The notes beneath the pieces were generated by a model that saw only the letters and a list, made by a program, of their open reading frames with translations, did not search any database and was not told the origin of the DNA. Below, piece by piece: positions 1 to 12,334 of a DNA stretch of 12,421 bases. Location: the NCBI GenBank assembly GCA_005223375.1, contig RXOD01005811.1, positions 1-12,421 of the forward strand, written 5' to 3'. The DNA comes from Amoebophrya sp. AT5.2. Taxonomy: Eukaryota; Sar; Dinophyceae; Syndiniales; Amoebophryaceae. The position numbers and the translations under genes are program-made. Every line of letters begins with the position of its first letter. Within the stretch, counting starts at the first letter, position 1.

Positions 1-3000
1 ACAAGTTTTTGCTACTATTTTTGACGTTCCCGGGAAGTGGGTCCTGCTCCACAACCTGTCCCTCCGGGTCGTTTGAAAATGCTCCTGGGGTTTCTTTTTG
101 CTCGGGGCGGAGCAGCTGCTCTAGAAGCTTTTTTTCCAGCAGCTCCTGCGCAGTAGGCGGATCCCTTCGCGTTCTTTGTGGCGGATGCGGTTGTGGTGAC
201 GGCTGGGCTGGAGGCAGTGCTTCGTGGAAAGGAGCCGGATGAGTAGACGAGAACAGGAAGTCCCGATACCTCTTCAACCACTGCCACACCCTCAGATCCG
301 CAGCACGAGCACAGAGCGTGGCGGCAATCGTTTTCTGCAAGCGGTCCGCGATTTGCTCTTCTCGAGCGAGGGCCGCCGCGCGATACCGCGAGATTTGAAA
401 TTCCGATCTCCCGGCCCGCGCCGGAAGAGCTGGCGCTTCCGCGACGATCGCCGCGAGTGCAGCGTGAATCACTCCCCGCGGGATGAAGTAAAACAAGTAC
501 GTCGGTTTTTGGAAGCCCAGCGCCGCGTCAAAAAAACTACCCCCCAGTGTCTCCATAGTTGTTGTTCCACCTTCAGTTGAAGCCGCCAACAAGTACCCGA
601 AGGCCGAGCCTGTTTGTTTCCGCAATGTCCAGCCTTTTCCATATAAGCCCCAAATCGGCCACCACGTCTTCGCGAACAACGCAGTGTTTTGGCCGCGTTG
701 GTACAAATCATAAGCCAGCAGCCGTGATTTCTTTGGGGGATCGACTTCGAACCAGAGTTCATGATTGGAGGAGGACCCGTGCGTCGGCGGTGGTAGCATG
801 GATTCGCTCAAGTCGAGACTCATCCGCAGAAGATTTCGATCGAAGGAGTGCCCCAGTATGGGAAACGCGTACACTCGCCACGGAGGGATACAAGTCTTAA
901 ATTCGAACTTTTCATCAACCTCAACCTCCTCCCCGCCCGCCGAACTACTTTGGAAGAAGTGCTGCGTAAAGTGTTCCTCGTCTTCGACGTCCCAGTAAAA
1001 ACTACTGCTTCCACTGCCGCCCTCAGACATCTTCCGGGAAAATATGACCTCATGCCGCGGCACGCGCTTGAAAATGAGCGGAACGTAGCCCGGGTTGCGG
1101 ATGCGCGACCACCGGCTGTGATTCGCGTTCGCCTTTGGGGTCATCACCGTCCGATCGGTTGCAGCATGCTCCTCGGGACGAGGTGGGTCGGGAGCCCAGA
1201 ACTCGAAACCCGCCGACTCCGCCGTCTGCCGCAGGAAGCCCTGCTTCTGTGCGTACCGAACGCGCGTGAGTTAGAGGCTATGAGTATATTCGTCATCTGC
1301 GATGTAGCATCTCGTGTAGCAATAAATCACCCACAACCACTCACATTTCTTTGCTGGTACCTCCGACGGATAACAAACAGGCAGCCGGCGCAAGTGGCCA
1401 GCGATTGCAACCCTACTTATGACTATGAATGCTTGCTATGAAGAGGCATCACCCGTCGGATCCTATGAATGTATCCAGCCGATGGCGAGTAATCCGGTAT
1501 CGCCATCGAGCAATAACCGGGCGAAGTGCTACACCGTCTTCGCCCCTGCTTCTGTGGAGACAAGAATGCCCTTGTTGATCCGACGACATCAATAAAAGGA
1601 AGGGGCGGGCGGGGACTTCGACTTCACTAAGACTAAGATACTTTGCTACAGGAGAAGATGATGCGAAACAGGATGGCGTAAAATTCATAGGGTGTAAGTG
1701 AAGGTGCGGCAGTGGAGGCTGCCGGATTCCACGGCCTGCTTGAACAGGCCCGCCGCGAATTTGTTCACGAAGTTCACAAAAATGTACGGCGCGTTCTTCG
1801 GGTCGCTTTTCATCCACGCGGCCCGGGTCTCCGCATCCGAGTCCAAGTGCTGGATGACCACGTGGACAAAATCGTACAACCCGTACAATCCTACTTCGTT
1901 CAAATCGTGCACAACGTGCTCGGCTCGCAGCTGGACCATCACCGCTTCCGAAATGCGGTCCAGCATGAAACTCGTCGCGTCTGCTTGTTCTTTCTTAAAC
2001 GAGGGGCCTTCAGTAATTCTGGCAGCCACTTTGTGCGGCGGCCACTTCTGCCACTGGCCCAGAAAAACCTCGTGGCGAGACGAGGGCTCGCCACCAGGGG
2101 CCGTTCTGCGGCCGGAGCTGCCGGAGGGGCCTTGACGTACGGAGGCTTCTGCGGCTGCCGGGCGATGAGCTCCTGTTGCGGGTGTTCGTGTTGGGGCCGC
2201 TCCGATGGGCGTGGGAGCTGACATGGTGTTGGAGGTTTTCTTCCCCATCCTCCTCGCCCGAAAATGTCCCGCGGCCAGCGGGCCTGCGGGCAACGGACCA
2301 CTCTCTTCTGTCCCTGCGAATGATTGTGAAGATGTGTCTTCATTCAAGAACAGCCTGTTGAACATTTGCTTTCGCTGAGCAACTTCACTCGCAGCAGCTT
2401 TTACTTGATTTAGAAACCGGACCCGGAGCTGTTCTTCTTCTTCCCTCGAGGAGCAGCTGCTGCTGGCCGCCGCTCGACCACTCCCTCTTCCGCGTCCGGC
2501 GGACCGGAGGCTGTTTTGCTCGTCCGAATAGGCGCCGGCGCGATCACCCGTAGGCGGTTGCTCCTCTTCTTCTTCTTCGTGTGGAGGTCCTCCACCTCGA
2601 GGAGCTTTGGGGGTTTCAGACCGATGGTCCACGACCGTCCTCGTCTGGGCCGCGGGGGCACCAACATCCTTGTCTCTGTCCCCCCGATGAATTATCTGGG
2701 CAGGGAAGGCCCATGGAAGTGGGCGGCGGATCCGTCGGTCCCCGTGCACGGAAGTTGTGGACGACGGCGGCGGCCCTTCCGGCGGACGGGGAGTCGGCTG
2801 CTGTTGTTCTCTCTGATCACGTACCTGCTGCTCGCGGAGGAGGTCATCAACCCCAACCGCATCATCAACCACGAAAGAAGTTCCGGGCATGGTGAAATCG
2901 GCTGTGCTGGCTGTCGTTGTCGTTGTGGGTGTGGCCCCCGGTAAAGGTAATGGCAGCGCGCTCTGCGTCTCCGTCTGGTGGGCCGCCTGTGATCCGCGTC

Positions 3001-5991: not shown

Positions 5992-8900
5992 TCAATTTGG
6001 CGGCATCGAACGCGGCCTCCTGCGCCTGCCGTCGGGCGAGAGGAACGCCCCCTCTTTCACGTCCTCCACCGACAGAAACGTGTTTTTTTCCACCAACCGC
6101 AACGGCAACTGAACCTCTCCCCCAGAGGAAGTAGATTCCGCTTCAATAAACGTCATCGGCTGGAACTGCCCGCGCACAAAAGTCGGCTTTTGGTGCTGGT
6201 AAAGAAAACGGGGGTAAGCGGTAAAGGTTGTCTGGACACCAACATCTTCAGTTCGCGGTTGGCGCGGGCCAGTTTTTGCACGGTGTTGGAGCTCGGCAAG
6301 GCTGTCCAAGCTCGAGTTGTGCCGACGCGGGGGGCGTTGGACTTCGGGGGGTGTCGGATCTCGTTCGATGGTGCTATTTCCACCTGGAGGGCTCTTATTG
6401 CAGTCCGCTGCCAGGAAGTCGCGTATTTCGTAGGCGTAATAGCCGCTTCCACTTCCGGCAGAAGGAGCAGCACTCGAAGAGGCCCCGCTTCTTGGGGTCG
6501 GGTGTTGGACCTCCGGAAGACTGTCCAGTGTCGGATTGCCGCGCCACGACTCCGGATACGGCGGGTGGTGGGGGACCAAACGAAAAATTTCGCCACCACT
6601 CTTGCGGTGGGGCCATTCCACTTCCTGGGTCACCGCGTGCGCCTGCTGCCTGTGCCACTGATGCCAAGAACACGGAGGTGTAGAAGCAGTATCACCGGAG
6701 TTTTGCTGCATCGCTGCTCTACTCGTCTCCTGCTCACTCCTTGCATAAGGAAAAAACCTTGCCGAAGAAGGAAAAAACCGTTTTCCGAACCTGGGCGAGT
6801 AGTTCTGCTTCTGCTGGTGCGACTGCGAAGCGACCCCGTGCGAGGTGGCTCCACCCCAATCTGTACCCGTCGGCGCGGCTTCCCAATGATCCGTACCCGT
6901 CGGCGCGGTTCCCCAAGAATCCGTGCCCGCCTGCGCGGTTCCCCAAGAATCCGTGCCTGCCTGCGTGTTTCCCCAATTCGTTCCCGCCGGCGCGGTTCCC
7001 CATTCCGTGCCCGCCTGCGTGTTTCCCCAATCCGTGCCCGCCTGCGTGGCTCCCCAATCCGTGCCCCCCAGCTGCGTGGTTCCCCAATCCGTGCCCCAGC
7101 AGCACGGCTTCTGCGGGAAGAAACCAGACGCCGTCGCGTTCTGCAATTGCTGGTCCTGGTCGTGGAAACGGTTATGAAACTGAAAGCTGGCATTACCACC
7201 GACGAGATGAGACGAATCCTGGACGCAGACCCACGACTCCTCGGGGCTGCAGCCTGCCGCATTTACTGCCCCGTAAGCGTACGCAGGATCAGCATGATGG
7301 TGCTCAAGATCATAGACTGAAGATTGCTGAGTTGCGACGTACCCACACGACCCGCTGTTGAGCTGCATCATTCGCAGCTGATGGTCGATATGGGCCTCGA
7401 AGCAAGCGTCCGTCGTCGCGCCGGTACTATCGGTGCCACCAGTATCACCCATGAACGTGATGTATCAGAACGACCACGCGATTCAACTCGAAACGATTCA
7501 AAAATTTGCAATTATAGTTTTTCTATTAGGCTTTTTCAGGTACTCCATTGCCGTCTCGCGGCCACGACCTACTGGGACCTCGATTGGTGTCCCACCCCGG
7601 AGACGGATCGTCTCCGCGGCCCGCGCAGCCAGTCGGGGCCTCCCTCCTCTAGCATCCTTCTTCGTAGGCTGGCCGAGCCACCGCCGCCGCCATTCCCGCC
7701 GCTACCTGGTTATGTTTGGATGAGTGAACCTGTGATGTTTGTGATGGATTTGCGATGCGTCTTTGATGCTTGATGATTCGGTGGCCCAGATTAGAATAGC
7801 TATCAGTTGTAGTCGCATTCCAGCCCTGGCAGCAGGCCTCCAGCACCGCAACCAGCCGCCGCGCAAGCACCGTCGGACGGCTCTCTCTTCAGCTACCAGC
7901 TCCTGGGCCCCGCCCGGGGCCCAGGTCGTGGTTGCTGCAGATGGAGCTCCTCCCCCGGTGCTGACGCTGCTGCTGGGGTCGGCGTTGTGGGGGCTGCCGC
8001 GGCGGATGCTGAAAACAACTAGAATCTACCATATCTGGGCCACCATAACATCATCCATCAGCATCGCAAATCATTCAAACATCGGACAAATACAGGCTTC
8101 ATCATCCTCACATAAACAGGTAGAAGCCAGCGCCGCCGTGGCGCGCAGTCCAGTCGGAAGCCAGAAGAACCTCCTCTGACGGCCATCATTTGGCACTGGT
8201 TGGATCCCGTGCCAAATCTGTCCGGCCAGCGAAGGCTGCCAGCACGTCGTACTCGTAGACCTTCCGCTGGCACCCAGCGGCGCCACATCCTGAAACCGCC
8301 CCTGGAAACTAACTTTATAAATTTTTGAATCGTTTTGAGTTGAATCGCGTGGTCGTTCTGATATGATGGGGTCGTGATACTGGTGGCTCTCACCGGGGCG
8401 GTTCATCGGGATCGGTTCATGGGTCGTGGCACAACTGGGGGTCAGACCCATCGGCTCATCCTCATTGTTCATAGGGGTGACCATAGAAGGTAGATGGGGA
8501 ATGTAGAAGTCGCCGCCGACGTCCGGGTGACCGCGCACGAACTGAGCGTGCGCAATTTTTTGCTGCTGCTGCTCACCATACAGGACGTCGTTTTCGTCAG
8601 CTTCATGAAGTTGCTGCCGTAGTCGCTCGTCCAACTCTTCCTGCCGGGGCAGCTGCAAGAGGTGCAATGGACCGTTACGCTCCAGCTCCTTCAGTCTTAC
8701 TTCCCCGTCCACCGCGGGGCCAAGGTTAGGGTGGTACCCTTCGAAGGACCTCTCTGGCGTGGTCAACCCAAGTTGTGTCTGGAGTGGCTCTGACGGTGAC
8801 TGGTAATATCCGGTATATGGGAGACCGCCGGGTGGTTCCGGACTCGATCTGCCGCCCGGCGTCGCGGTGCCCTCACGAGCCCAATCTGCCGCGGCACCAC

Positions 8901-11900
8901 CAAACCGCCGAACCGAGACTCGCTCCGATGCCTCATCCTCATCCGACTCCCACAACGTATTATACAACTGCTCCTCAACGTCCTCAACAACATGTGTTCG
9001 ATGCCACGACTGAACTACACCCGTACCCGTCAGACACGGGTGCTCAACAGTCGTTGCATGTTCAACAGTCGTTGCATGTTGATCGCCTCTGCACGCTTGC
9101 GTGTCGTGCTGAAGATCACCTCCACACACCGAGACCGTGTGCGCTACAGAGGCCCTGGTGGCCGGGGAACTGTTGCGAAGCGGTAGTCGTTGTGGTGTCG
9201 TGGGAGCTGCCAGAAGGTCTTGTGGCCCTCCTACGGCCAGTGGATGCGCCGCGCCAACTACATCAGCGTCAGCTTTGCCCGGAGCAAAAGCTGGCGGCCC
9301 GGATGCAGCAGCTGGCCCGGACGACGCCAACGCTACAGCTTTGCCGCTATCTTCAGGGCCAGCTGCTGCGTCCGGGCCAGCTGCGGCAGTTTTCATACGA
9401 TGCTGCAGCTGCGGGGGTTGCCGCGGTAGTTGTTGTGCTGCAAGCGGCAGTTTTTGTCTTTGTGCTGCGCCGCCATCTTCAGCGACCGCTTTGGCTCCAG
9501 CAATTCCCAGTCCCACGTCCACCGCAGACGCGTCCTCGGAAACTTGGGCTGTCGAGACCGAGTAGGTGGAGTAGAAAAGCCGATTTGATGCGCTACGTCT
9601 ACCGATGGTCAAGCAGTCATCGTCATGGTCAAACACAAACTTGGTATATAAGTTAGTACCTTGTTGACTCCCCGGCGGCGATGCGGGTTGGTGTTTTGGC
9701 GCTGGCCACGGGGGCTGCCACTCGCCGTTCAGCGGAGGGGGGGCCGGGGGCTGCCACTCGTTCGGCGCCAAGGTCGGCCGCAAGTACTGCGGGTGCGGGC
9801 TCTCCTGGGTGGACTGTGGAGCTGCTCCTGACGACAGGGACAGGGAGGCTGGGGTTGCCGCTACCACCTCATCCTGCAGCCGCCGCAGCAGTGCGAGCTC
9901 TTCACGCGAGATCCCGGCAGGCGCAGCGTACGCCCTTCTTTGCAGCTGTTGCAGCAGCTCGAGCTGCTGAGCCTGAGTCCTGTCGTGGTTCGTCCTAGCA
10001 GCTGGAGGAGCAGGTTCTTGTCGTTGGGTTCCAGTACTTGGTGGCTGCAGCTCCTGCTGGTGCGTCCCCACTGCCACTCCGCCGACGTGCGCGGCTTCCT
10101 CCGCTGGCCGGCGGGCCACGACGTGTCCACCGATCAAGTGAAGCTGTCTTGTCACTTGTTCTTCCGGGGGCCATCGACTGCCATCAGTGGGGGGTGCTTC
10201 ACCAACCCCCGACCCGCCCAAAGTAGTTGCACGCGTGTTTTTGATGAATGTTCCTGGAGGCGGTGGAACTGGAGTCGTGGCCATGGTCGGTCGTCGCCGT
10301 GGCCCTGGGGGTGGCGGTGTCCCAGGTGAGTGCGCGCCTTCCAACGCTTCCCCTTCTCGTCTGGGCTCAATGACAAGCAGCGGTAGGCCGCCGGCAGCTT
10401 GGACCACTTGGCCACTTTCGGAAAAACGATTTTGCTGCACCTCTTCCGACGGCTGCAGCATGGGACTGTGCCAGAGCCGCAGCAGCCTGTTTTTGATTGA
10501 GGGGGAACAAATTTTAAAATTGGAGTTGCAGCATCGAAGGAAGTACAGTGCTCCAGCAATCTAAAGACGAAGAGGAAGATCTTCTTGCTCTTGTAGACGA
10601 AGCTATACATACGTATCAATCTAATTCTATCATGGGTGAACAAGAGAAGAATGTCACAAACTCGAAGTGAAGCACGACGGCGCTCGTTGTACCTGTGGTG
10701 ATCCCTATCCCCTCGCTGCTCACGTCCACCGTTTGACGATGCACGTGCGCTATCCGCACGTCTATCACCGTCACCCCCTTGTTGGTGTTGCGCGAGCGGT
10801 TGGCCTTTGCTCTGGTGCTGTTTGTGTTCTTGATGCTGTTGTTGGCCGCTGTGTTCTTGCTTTCGGCCCTGCTCCTGCTGCCGCATCAGCTGTGTGTGCT
10901 GTTCGGAGTTTAACATCGGATATGGCGGTGCTGCGACTGCAGCTGAATTACCAGCAGTATACGTCGTCGGCGTAGTACTAGTTGCCACAGCAGGTTGCTG
11001 CTCTTCTCGTTGTGCAGTAGCTACCTCAGTTTCAGTTGGAAGTGGCACAGCGGGCAGCTGCAAACCGGGCACGGCTGGTCCTACTGGGGCTCCGGTACCA
11101 CCTTGGAGGACCGGCTTTCCCAGAACTCGTTTGCTCTCCCGTTGTTCTGCTTGGCCACCTTGATGACTGGTAGTAACCGCCGCCGCCGCCGGCGTTGACG
11201 TGACGGAGGCCTCTACTTGCGTTTCTCGTTCCTGCCCTGATGCCTGCAGCTCGGTAATATAATCGTCCCAAGAAGACCCTGGGACGACCAGCGTCGGATT
11301 CTCGTCCCAGCGCCAAACCCGCTGCTGCCAGAGGTGATCGCGCACCCGCTTCAGCTGCGCCCACACCGCCTTGTCCGCGACGCTGAGCAAAGTGGCCACG
11401 GTTTCCTGAAGCCGCTCCGCGATTTGGACTTCCCGCGCCAGCGTCGCGGCGCGGTCGTCACGTGATACGTTGTCGCCCGCCACAACTCGCTCCGCATCCG
11501 CGGCCGCGACGATCCACTGAAGTGTCGCATAATTCACCCCCGCCGGGACGAAGTAAAACGCGTACGTCGGGTTTTGGAACCCCAGCGCCGCGTCGAAGAA
11601 AAACCCACCCAATGTCTCGCGCGTCGCCAGCAGGTAGGCGAAGTCGGAGTTGGTGTTTTTCCGTAGCGCCCAGCTTTTTTCGTACAAACGGCAAATCGGC
11701 CGCCACACCGATAACAGCGAAAGTTGTGTCTGGGGCTGGTCGAAATTTAGATCCATCACACCGCTGGCATGCTCAAGCGGATTAACGGGGCCCATCTCGA
11801 ACCAGAGCTCATCGGCCCGCCCGGAAATTGGGGGCAGCATGCCTTCGGACAAGTCGAAACTGAGTCGCAGCAGATTGCGATAGAATTTTTGTCCAGCCAT

Positions 11901-12334
11901 CGGGAACGCGTACACAGTCCAGGGGGGAACGAATTTTTCCGGAATTCCGTGTGACACTTCACCTCGCCGCGGCACGCGCTTGAAAATCAAAGGCACGAAG
12001 CTCGGGTTGCGGATCCGAGACCACCTGCTGGCGCTGGTTTTCGGAATCATCACCTTCTCATAAAACTCGAAATTCGCGTACTCGGCCACCTGCTGCAGGA
12101 AGCCCTGCTTGTTGGCGTATTTCACCCTTTTGAAGGTGCGGCAGTGGAGGCGGTCCGATTCCACGGCCTGGCGAAACAAACCCGCCGCGAATTTGTTCAC
12201 AAAGTTGACGAAAATGAAGGGCGCGTGCTGGCTATGGGGGGTGGAATGTTGGGGTCTCGTGGAGGTCGCCTGCCCGCGGGCTTGGCCCTTGGAGCCCCAG
12301 TGCTTCACCACCACGTGGACGAAATCGTAGAGGC
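5992..12334 (-). CDS. Gene A: large multi-exon protein of unknown function, 5'-partial; conserved N-terminal domain plus long repeat-rich tail
   Basis: Proposed exons are 12334-10693, 10486-8391 and 7436-5992. Joined, they keep one open frame (1642 + 2096 + 1445 nt; first two bases belong to a split codon) and give 1,726 residues ending at the stop at 5992. The 5' end is beyond the window. Residues 1-335 (numbered from the first whole codon) form a domain shared with gene B. Residues 370-545 are A/T/P-rich, then very Q/H/E-rich. Exon 2 encodes a P/Q/A/S-rich region with CAG-type glutamine runs. Exon 3 encodes nine GTDWG-type repeats and three LDSLxEVQH-like repeats. No catalytic motif, signal peptide or membrane segment is seen, but the true N-terminus is missing. 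The reading strand is supported by domain homology to gene B and by exact phase agreement at both introns. Antisense open frames over the same region are basic, low-complexity shadows. The exon structure is inferred without transcript data; the third exon could instead be a separate gene. Confidence 0.72.
6282..6536 (-). repeat. Three dispersed degenerate repeats (LDSLxEVQH type) in gene A
   Basis: Copies are at about 6501-6536 (TLDSLPEVQHP), 6333-6365 (RDPTPPEVQRP) and 6282-6316 (SLDSLAELQHR). The outer two share clear DNA similarity, including the start GGTGTTGGA on the plus strand and CTGTCCA further on. They sit in the C-terminal third of the exon 3 product, between the GTDWG array and the C-terminus. 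Confidence 0.6.
6850..7098 (-). repeat. Tandem repeat of 27-30 bp encoding nine GTDWG-type units
   Basis: Read on the gene A strand, the units are GTDWGTTQL, GGTDWGATQA, GTDWGNTQA, GTEWGTAPA, GTNWGNTQA, GTDSWGTAQA, GTDSWGTAPT, GTDHWEAAPT and a degenerate last copy, GTDWGGATSHG. Two units carry an extra serine codon. Tryptophan and the preceding GT are the most constant positions. The array lies in exon 3, in frame, and length changes by whole codons fit expansion under protein-level constraint. Confidence 0.85.
7435..7791 (+). repeat. Left arm of the inverted-repeat element
   Basis: This arm matches the reverse complement of 8033-8387. The outer 73 bases are strongly conserved, the middle is diverged but recognisable, and the inner 45 bases are conserved again. 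It is entirely within the proposed intron 2 of gene A, except for two bases at its outer edge. Confidence 0.75.
7437..8390 (-). other. Putative non-canonical intron 2 of gene A, formed by an inverted-repeat element (954 nt)
   Basis: Exon 2 and exon 3 are in the same frame on either side. Removing 8390-7437 joins them exactly between two copies of GGTG (8394-8391 and 7440-7437, minus-strand reading), giving a PG|GTDST junction. No GT-AG pair at this position restores the frame: the nearby GTGAGA donor with the nearest TAG acceptor gives the wrong phase. Read through without splicing, exon 2 ends at the stop at 8071, inside the element. This arrangement resembles introner-type introns, which are bounded by short direct repeats and inverted repeats. 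Alternatively, there could be two separate genes, one ending at 8071 and one starting at the ATG at 7452 within the element arm. Confidence 0.6.
8033..8387 (-). repeat. Right arm of the inverted-repeat element
   Basis: This arm is the inverted counterpart of 7435-7791. In the minus-strand frame of gene A it would translate as a continuation of exon 2 down to the stop at 8071, adding roughly 105 element-derived residues if not spliced out. Both arms encode the peptide SERPRDST.NDSKI when read inward from their outer ends, which follows from their DNA identity and is not evidence of coding. Confidence 0.72.
9044..9079. repeat. Perfect 18-bp tandem duplication in gene A exon 2
   Basis: TCAACAGTCGTTGCATGT occurs twice head to tail. 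In the gene A frame it encodes the duplicated peptide HATTVEHATTVEH. It is in frame and recent in appearance because the copies are identical. Confidence 0.9.
9297..9393. repeat. Imperfect palindrome inside coding sequence of gene A exon 2
   Basis: The left and right halves are inverted copies of each other, centred near 9345. The best-conserved core is GGCCCGGA, one variable base, then GCAGCAGCTGGCCC. Because of this, both strands encode similar peptides: AAAGPDAAAGPEDSG on the gene A strand and GGPDAAAGPDDAN on the plus strand. The gene A frame stays open across it. Confidence 0.7.
9710..9760. repeat. Imperfect 36-bp tandem repeat in gene A exon 2 (EWQPP units)
   Basis: GGGGGCTGCCACTCG occurs at 9710-9724 and again at 9746-9760, 36 bases apart. 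In the gene A frame it gives two EWQPP motifs within a proline-rich segment (NEWQPPAPPP then NGEWQPPWPAP), a 12-residue period. Confidence 0.75.
10487..10692 (-). other. Canonical GT-AG intron in gene A (206 nt)
   Basis: The donor is CACAG|GTACAA and the acceptor is AAAACAG|GCTGC, preceded by a pyrimidine-rich stretch (TTGTTCCCCCTC). The upstream exon ends two bases into a codon and the downstream exon supplies the third base (AG+G, arginine), so the frame moves cleanly from the Q-rich exon into the next long open frame. Without splicing, the first frame continues into a cysteine- and basic-rich translation and ends at 10152, while the second frame is open for about 2 kb. The agreement of consensus and phase makes this the best-supported intron in the window. 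Confidence 0.82.
11328..12334 (-). other. Conserved domain in gene A (about 335 residues, family not recognised)
   Basis: This segment aligns along its length with the gene B domain. Invariant or near-invariant blocks, in order, are LYDFVHVV (residues 1-8), IFVNFVNKFAAGLF (40-53), QAVES..LHCRTF (55-67), KQGFL (75-79), SRWSRIRNP..VPLIFKRVPR (102-122), PPW.VYAFP (136-144), RNLLR.S.DLSE.MLPP (152-168), ELWFE (175-179), W.LRK (221-225), FFDAALGFQ.PTY.FYF.P.GV (245-266) and an alpha-helical stretch with R....AR..QIA.RLQ.T (about 294-311). In the block from APFIF to NFEF, 43 of 54 residues match gene B. The many aromatics and regular hydrophobic spacing suggest a folded globular domain. I do not recognise the family and assign no function. 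Confidence 0.8.

Follow-up and report, generated by a model that had tools for sequence, protein, structure and literature searches.

The window analysed here is one whole contig of 12,421 nucleotides, and it was searched against a genome of 50.7 Mb in 2759 contigs. One of its genes, read on the minus strand, is divided into an upstream coding part at 8364..10461 (counted from the first ATG used, within an open frame of 829 aa in all) and a downstream coding part at 5992..7457 (an open frame of 490 aa), the chance of such open frames being about 2e-12 for 690 codons and 7e-9 for 480. Between them lies a foldback element of 901 bp, 7463..8363, which reads TATCAGAACG...CGTTCTGATA on the strand of the interrupted gene. 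Its terminal inverted repeats of 45 bp, at 7463..7507 on the gene-downstream end and 8319..8363 on the gene-upstream end, match each other at 44/45 positions, and directly outside the element on both sides stands a perfect 5-bp target-site duplication (7458..7462 and 8364..8368), which is CATCA on the minus strand and TGATG on the plus. The downstream coding part also contains a tandem repeat of about 27-30 nt at 6854-7096, encoding GTDWG(T/N)TQA-like units, and a further imperfect palindrome (79%) lies inside the upstream coding frame at 9296-9378. A second, unrelated introner of 427 nt occupies 1271..1697 on the minus strand, in the neighbouring gene.

The element is placed at 7463-8363 because the ends of its relatives on three other contigs (C2629, C2365 and C688) have in common the same TATCA terminus, followed by a GCGA-TCA motif, with no visible similarity outside. 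When both boundaries were shifted in a 17x17 grid, CATCA was the sole equal 5-mer pair among 289 independent pairs (0.28 expected), and sliding the element window from -8 to +8 gave no further duplication match. The first-pass annotation had drawn the element as 953 bp and had it excised as 954 nt between two GGTG copies. That removal does join the frames in phase, but the GGTG junction is without weight because shuffled ends share a 4-mer in 79% of 5000 trials and an in-frame one in 40%; the TATCA boundary, the CATCA duplication and the chance-level GGTG together lead us to reject both these limits and this junction. The 14-base perfect pair that had been taken for the terminus is present (7435-7448/8374-8387) but lies outside the CATCA duplications, and thus is not the end of the element. 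That the 901-bp element is a DNA insertion is close to certain.

The inverted architecture extends well beyond the termini. The 45-base block with one mismatch, as originally described, is real and belongs to a pair of arms matching at 90% over 58 bases (7463-7520/8306-8363), and an inner pair of 28 bases (82%, 7764-7791/8033-8060) is separated by 241 nt. These inner ends had been read as enclosing a loop of about 240 bases; the pair itself stands, but the inverted similarity continues through the centre, with 7702-8123 matching its own reverse complement at 69% in a self-comparison of the window. The ends are nevertheless more alike than the rest, the first 45 bases agreeing at 44/45 positions vs 229/421 over the remaining alignment columns (Fisher p 3e-10), and either selection or a young age may account for so close a match. 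The long RNA hairpin that the first-pass annotation had envisaged is borne out by folding, the transcribed strand of 7415-8410 reaching -530.9 kcal/mol (z -14.1) with 0/20 shuffles as good. Foldback and MITE-type non-autonomous DNA transposons have long inverted ends and a short duplication. The element resembles these in its terminal inverted repeats, in its target-site duplication and in encoding no Pfam domain (a Pfam search of its three ORFs returned 0 families, with no transposase encoded), and differs from them in lying inside a coding frame whose junction is free of stops.

The element is repeated in the genome, with relatives on three other contigs that are 73-85% identical in pieces. 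A search with the whole element recovered these on C2629 at 83% and, as piecewise matches, on C2365 at 78-85% and on C688 at 73-77%, and a search with the C2629 copy gave no relatives beyond them. When 101 bases of the terminal arm were searched for by themselves, the only matches in the 50.7 Mb were this element's own two arms. The C2365 relative has a duplication of 4/5, and removal of 1281 nt yields an open joined frame (borders chosen by eye and checked by script). About 1.28 kb separates the duplication copies of this relative (L022 3526-4693), and its internal translations repeat EHVSRARTCFHANAFRCSG-like units. The C2629 relative adjoins an exon of a helicase (Pfam Helicase_C). The AG that probably serves as acceptor for this exon, identified by eye, lies ~100 nt beyond the element, and therefore the borders there are not set by the element. 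The C688 relative starts within the last part of an open frame of 1025 aa (L023 5053-8130), in which no Pfam family was found.

When the element is taken out with one copy of the duplication (906 nt), the 829-aa frame runs on in phase into the 490-aa frame, and no stop is met until 1187 aa have been read. The predicted protein at this junction reads HQYHDPITFMG. Several other removals are also in frame, namely that of 954 nt at GGTG, that of 954 nt at a GT-AG pair (8380/7427) and that of 963 nt at GA-AG, and therefore the frame alone is not decisive. Near-identical ends and a perfect duplication may moreover mean a young insertion, such that intact frames alone are no proof of removal, and this permits an account in which there is no intron, the locus holding either two adjacent genes or one gene recently broken by the insertion. 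An ATG at 7452, just after the element, is consistent with that account, as is the fact that no homologue joins the two parts. Among 7992 candidates scored, no protein homologue of 8392-10461 was found at E 0.001, and no database protein spans the interrupted gene, the only protein found being EukProt g18150.t1, a gene model of the neighbouring gene. A Pfam search of the four window proteins returned 0 families. In the genome search for an uninterrupted paralogue the upstream part matched itself only, and the downstream part had a single further match, on C899 (48% across 122 aa). Against the absence of an intron stand the duplication junction, which keeps the frame with no stop through 1187 aa, and the C2365 relative, in which the ends have decayed and the in-frame open junction is still kept; we judge such an account to be improbable.

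If the element is removed from RNA, the removal probably takes place at the CATCA duplication. By analogy with the other introners considered below, the intron would then read TATCAG...CTGATA plus the 3' CATCA, 906 nt in all, and no register of this intron is GT-AG. An ordinary spliceosome could instead act upon the same insertion at host bases outside the duplication, removing 954 nt at 7427..8380 on the minus strand with its donor, CCA|GTATCA, at 8380 and its acceptor, GATAG|TAC, ending at 7427. This pair is in frame and stop-free, and introns of AT5 are reported (PMC7789003) to be 99.98% GT-AG. In-frame pairs are nonetheless common, numbering 63 in the scanned stretch, and the acceptor context lacks a clear pyrimidine tract.

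The outer 14-base inverted pair (7435..7448 and 8374..8387) lies outside the duplications and is therefore part of the target, that is, host sequence. Joined, its two halves make a 47-nt hairpin with the insertion near the middle, and the empty site (78 nt) folds at -39.4 kcal/mol (z -5.15) with 0/200 shuffles as good. The element may have entered the loop of this hairpin, or the hairpin may be an older short introner, either being conceivable. If the latter, the outer 14-base repeat and GGTG would be the remains of an older introner of about 48 nt with the 901-bp element nested inside, and the whole 954 nt would be removed. The arithmetic is compatible with this (954 - 906 = 48, the frame being kept), the dimensions agree with the repeats of 8-20 nt and direct repeats of 3-5 nt published in PMC7789003, and a 14-bp perfect flank pair is beyond chance, given that 240 mismatched flank pairs reach a maximum of 8. 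GGTG pairs, however, are expected by chance, and the hairpin, through which the coding frame stays open, may be no more than exon sequence; we regard such nesting as very improbable. No general tendency to insert into hairpins was seen, the flanks of 15 copies of the second family pairing over 4-6 bases only.

The second family offers a setting in which the splice junction can be controlled by homology. The element at 1271-1697 is flanked on the plus strand by GTGAG (1266-1270) and GTGAA (1698-1702), and it interrupts a domain that is kept whole in a paralogue without it (12040-12260); the domain aligns with this paralogue, by eye, without gaps if one duplication copy stays. It had been proposed that the two elements of the window are unrelated and that two families may be active. 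The first point holds, as the self-comparison of the window found no match between them at E <= 1e-3, and two unrelated families are indeed present, but the word active is unsupported here, the nearest relative found of the foldback element being 83% identical. A search with the second element gave 22 matches including itself, on 18 other contigs, and its 22-base terminus had 36 matches at <=3 mismatches against 0 for the reversed control, where one copy can give two matches. From a sample of 20 loci, one (L074) was dropped as the same place as L071 and four had an end that was not found, leaving 15 scored. In the final run, which used 5 bases for all 15 (an earlier run had used 4 bases for two copies), the duplication was perfect in 12/15 and 4/5 in the other three, where 0.015 perfect duplications were expected. 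Exact removal gave the best balanced open frame in 10 copies, a tie in 1 and a worse frame in 4 (p 0.0085 vs one third), and a GT-AG register could be reached by sliding in 2/12 of the copies with perfect duplications vs 4% of all 5-mers. When the ends of the second element were modelled in shortened form, they folded no better than shuffles (z -0.13), which counts against the need for a stem.

A comparable case was found in a kinase gene (L041, G000:C1417:1500-3150), where an element of 449 nt with TTA...TAA ends lies inside the codons for DLKPEN. The lysine of this kinase motif is regarded as invariant. Removal of the 449 nt at the duplication rebuilds HVIFRDLKPENVLL (RDLKPEN), and the 5' copy of the duplication must be the one kept, as the motif lysine is restored only with it; no GT is present up to 15 nt from the donor. 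The second element, with its empty paralogue, and L041 together argue that introners in this genome are very probably removed at borders other than GT-AG. A wider sample of kinase genes comprised 21 intervals in 20 fetched loci, of our own choice from 156 matches, and was read by eye and unscored. Three intervals were judged to need no intron, 14 looked GT-AG, one looked non-canonical (L041), and three (L033, L034 and L050) fell in no class. At L033 (G000:C2229:6400-8050) the kinase interval is of 514 nt, and close to its ends it carries a perfect inverted repeat of 13 bases (GAAGCTATAGTAG). That 14/18 of the intron-bearing intervals look GT-AG by eye speaks for ordinary splicing at 8380/7427, and against it is the observation that introners of the other family are excised at the duplication, with no GT-AG, in both homology-controlled cases; on balance we think that ordinary GT-AG splicing of this insertion is unlikely. 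Searches for U1 snRNA and U2 gave no match, but U2 was also unmatched even in 14 control genomes, so neither absence is informative.

On the whole of this evidence, the reading that we favour, and hold to be reasonably probable, is that a non-autonomous foldback DNA transposon of 901 bp inserted with duplication of its CATCA target and is carried as an introner. The proposal of a foldback transposon acting as an intron thus survives as the best reading, with limits and junction corrected to a 906-nt removal at CATCA. Splicing of this copy is likely, its exact place being deduced. It is reasonable to postulate that the transposon entered a protein-coding frame and duplicated the 5-bp target, that the transcript would pair at the near-perfect 45-bp ends and so set the exon ends side by side, and that the element with one duplication copy would be cut out, the exons rejoining in frame without a GT-AG border. 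We infer that RNA structure may help in the excision, the hairpin bringing the splice ends together. A broader proposition is that unrelated families, one short and TTA-ended and the other long, TATCA-ended and foldback, are introns cut at a 5-bp duplication of which the 5' copy is kept, such that removal from RNA would mirror precise transposon excision; this copy would have landed in a hairpin loop of the host, and the splice may be defined by that hairpin and not by the border bases. We offer this tentatively, as a possible but somewhat doubtful extension.

The genome contains 18 exact and 32 near copies of a motif that we take to be the dinoflagellate spliced leader, against 0 for the reversed control. 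Its GC content, measured on 126 kb of fetched loci, some of which overlap, is 55.9%, and that of Amoebophrya ceratii AT5.2 is given as 55.9% in a review (PMC11453091). The host is probably a parasitic dinoflagellate, and the spliced leader and GC would fit Amoebophrya ceratii AT5.2. Introners of Amoebophrya A25 and A120 are described by Farhat et al. 2021 (PMC7789003) as having intron ends with inverted repeats of 8-20 nt, borders with direct repeats of 3-5 nt and mostly no GT-AG, and a hairpin joining the exon ends is proposed there. The foldback element is like these in its inverted ends (44/45) and its 5/5 CATCA border repeat, and the second element (1271-1697) has the TTA-plus-purines ends described for A25. 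The foldback element differs from those introners in having near-perfect 45-bp ends rather than 8-20 nt, TATCA in place of TTA or TAT, a length of 901 bp where the published averages are 120 and 240 nt, a foldback structure throughout, few relatives and a position in a host hairpin, and it is a putative intron. It is best read as a new foldback family, low in copy number, that belongs with the Amoebophrya introners.

Most introners that derive from DNA transposons reportedly have GT-AG borders, and the element differs from these in having no GT-AG register at its duplication. It shares with them (Gozashti et al. 2022, PMC9860276) the terminal inverted repeats and the target-site duplications, which are 3-9 bp in some families there; in that paper, Amoebophrya is named a single time, in the title of a reference. 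What is proposed here also recalls the nonconventional introns of euglenids (PMC4770533 and PMC6221363), whose borders vary and whose ends are drawn together by an RNA structure; these belong to another lineage and are likened here by description and not by sequence.

In the literature searched on Amoebophrya introners we found no prior report of such elements in AT5, and a 2025 paper (PMC12005148) infers that only a subset of the Amoebophrya genus has the strange introns. If the genome is that of AT5.2, this inference would need revising. For the recognition of non-GT-AG introns in Amoebophrya, the genome offers small and exactly bounded cases that are directly testable by cDNA, and which comprise the element, its duplication, an empty paralogue and a kinase motif whose conservation shows which of the two duplication copies is retained.
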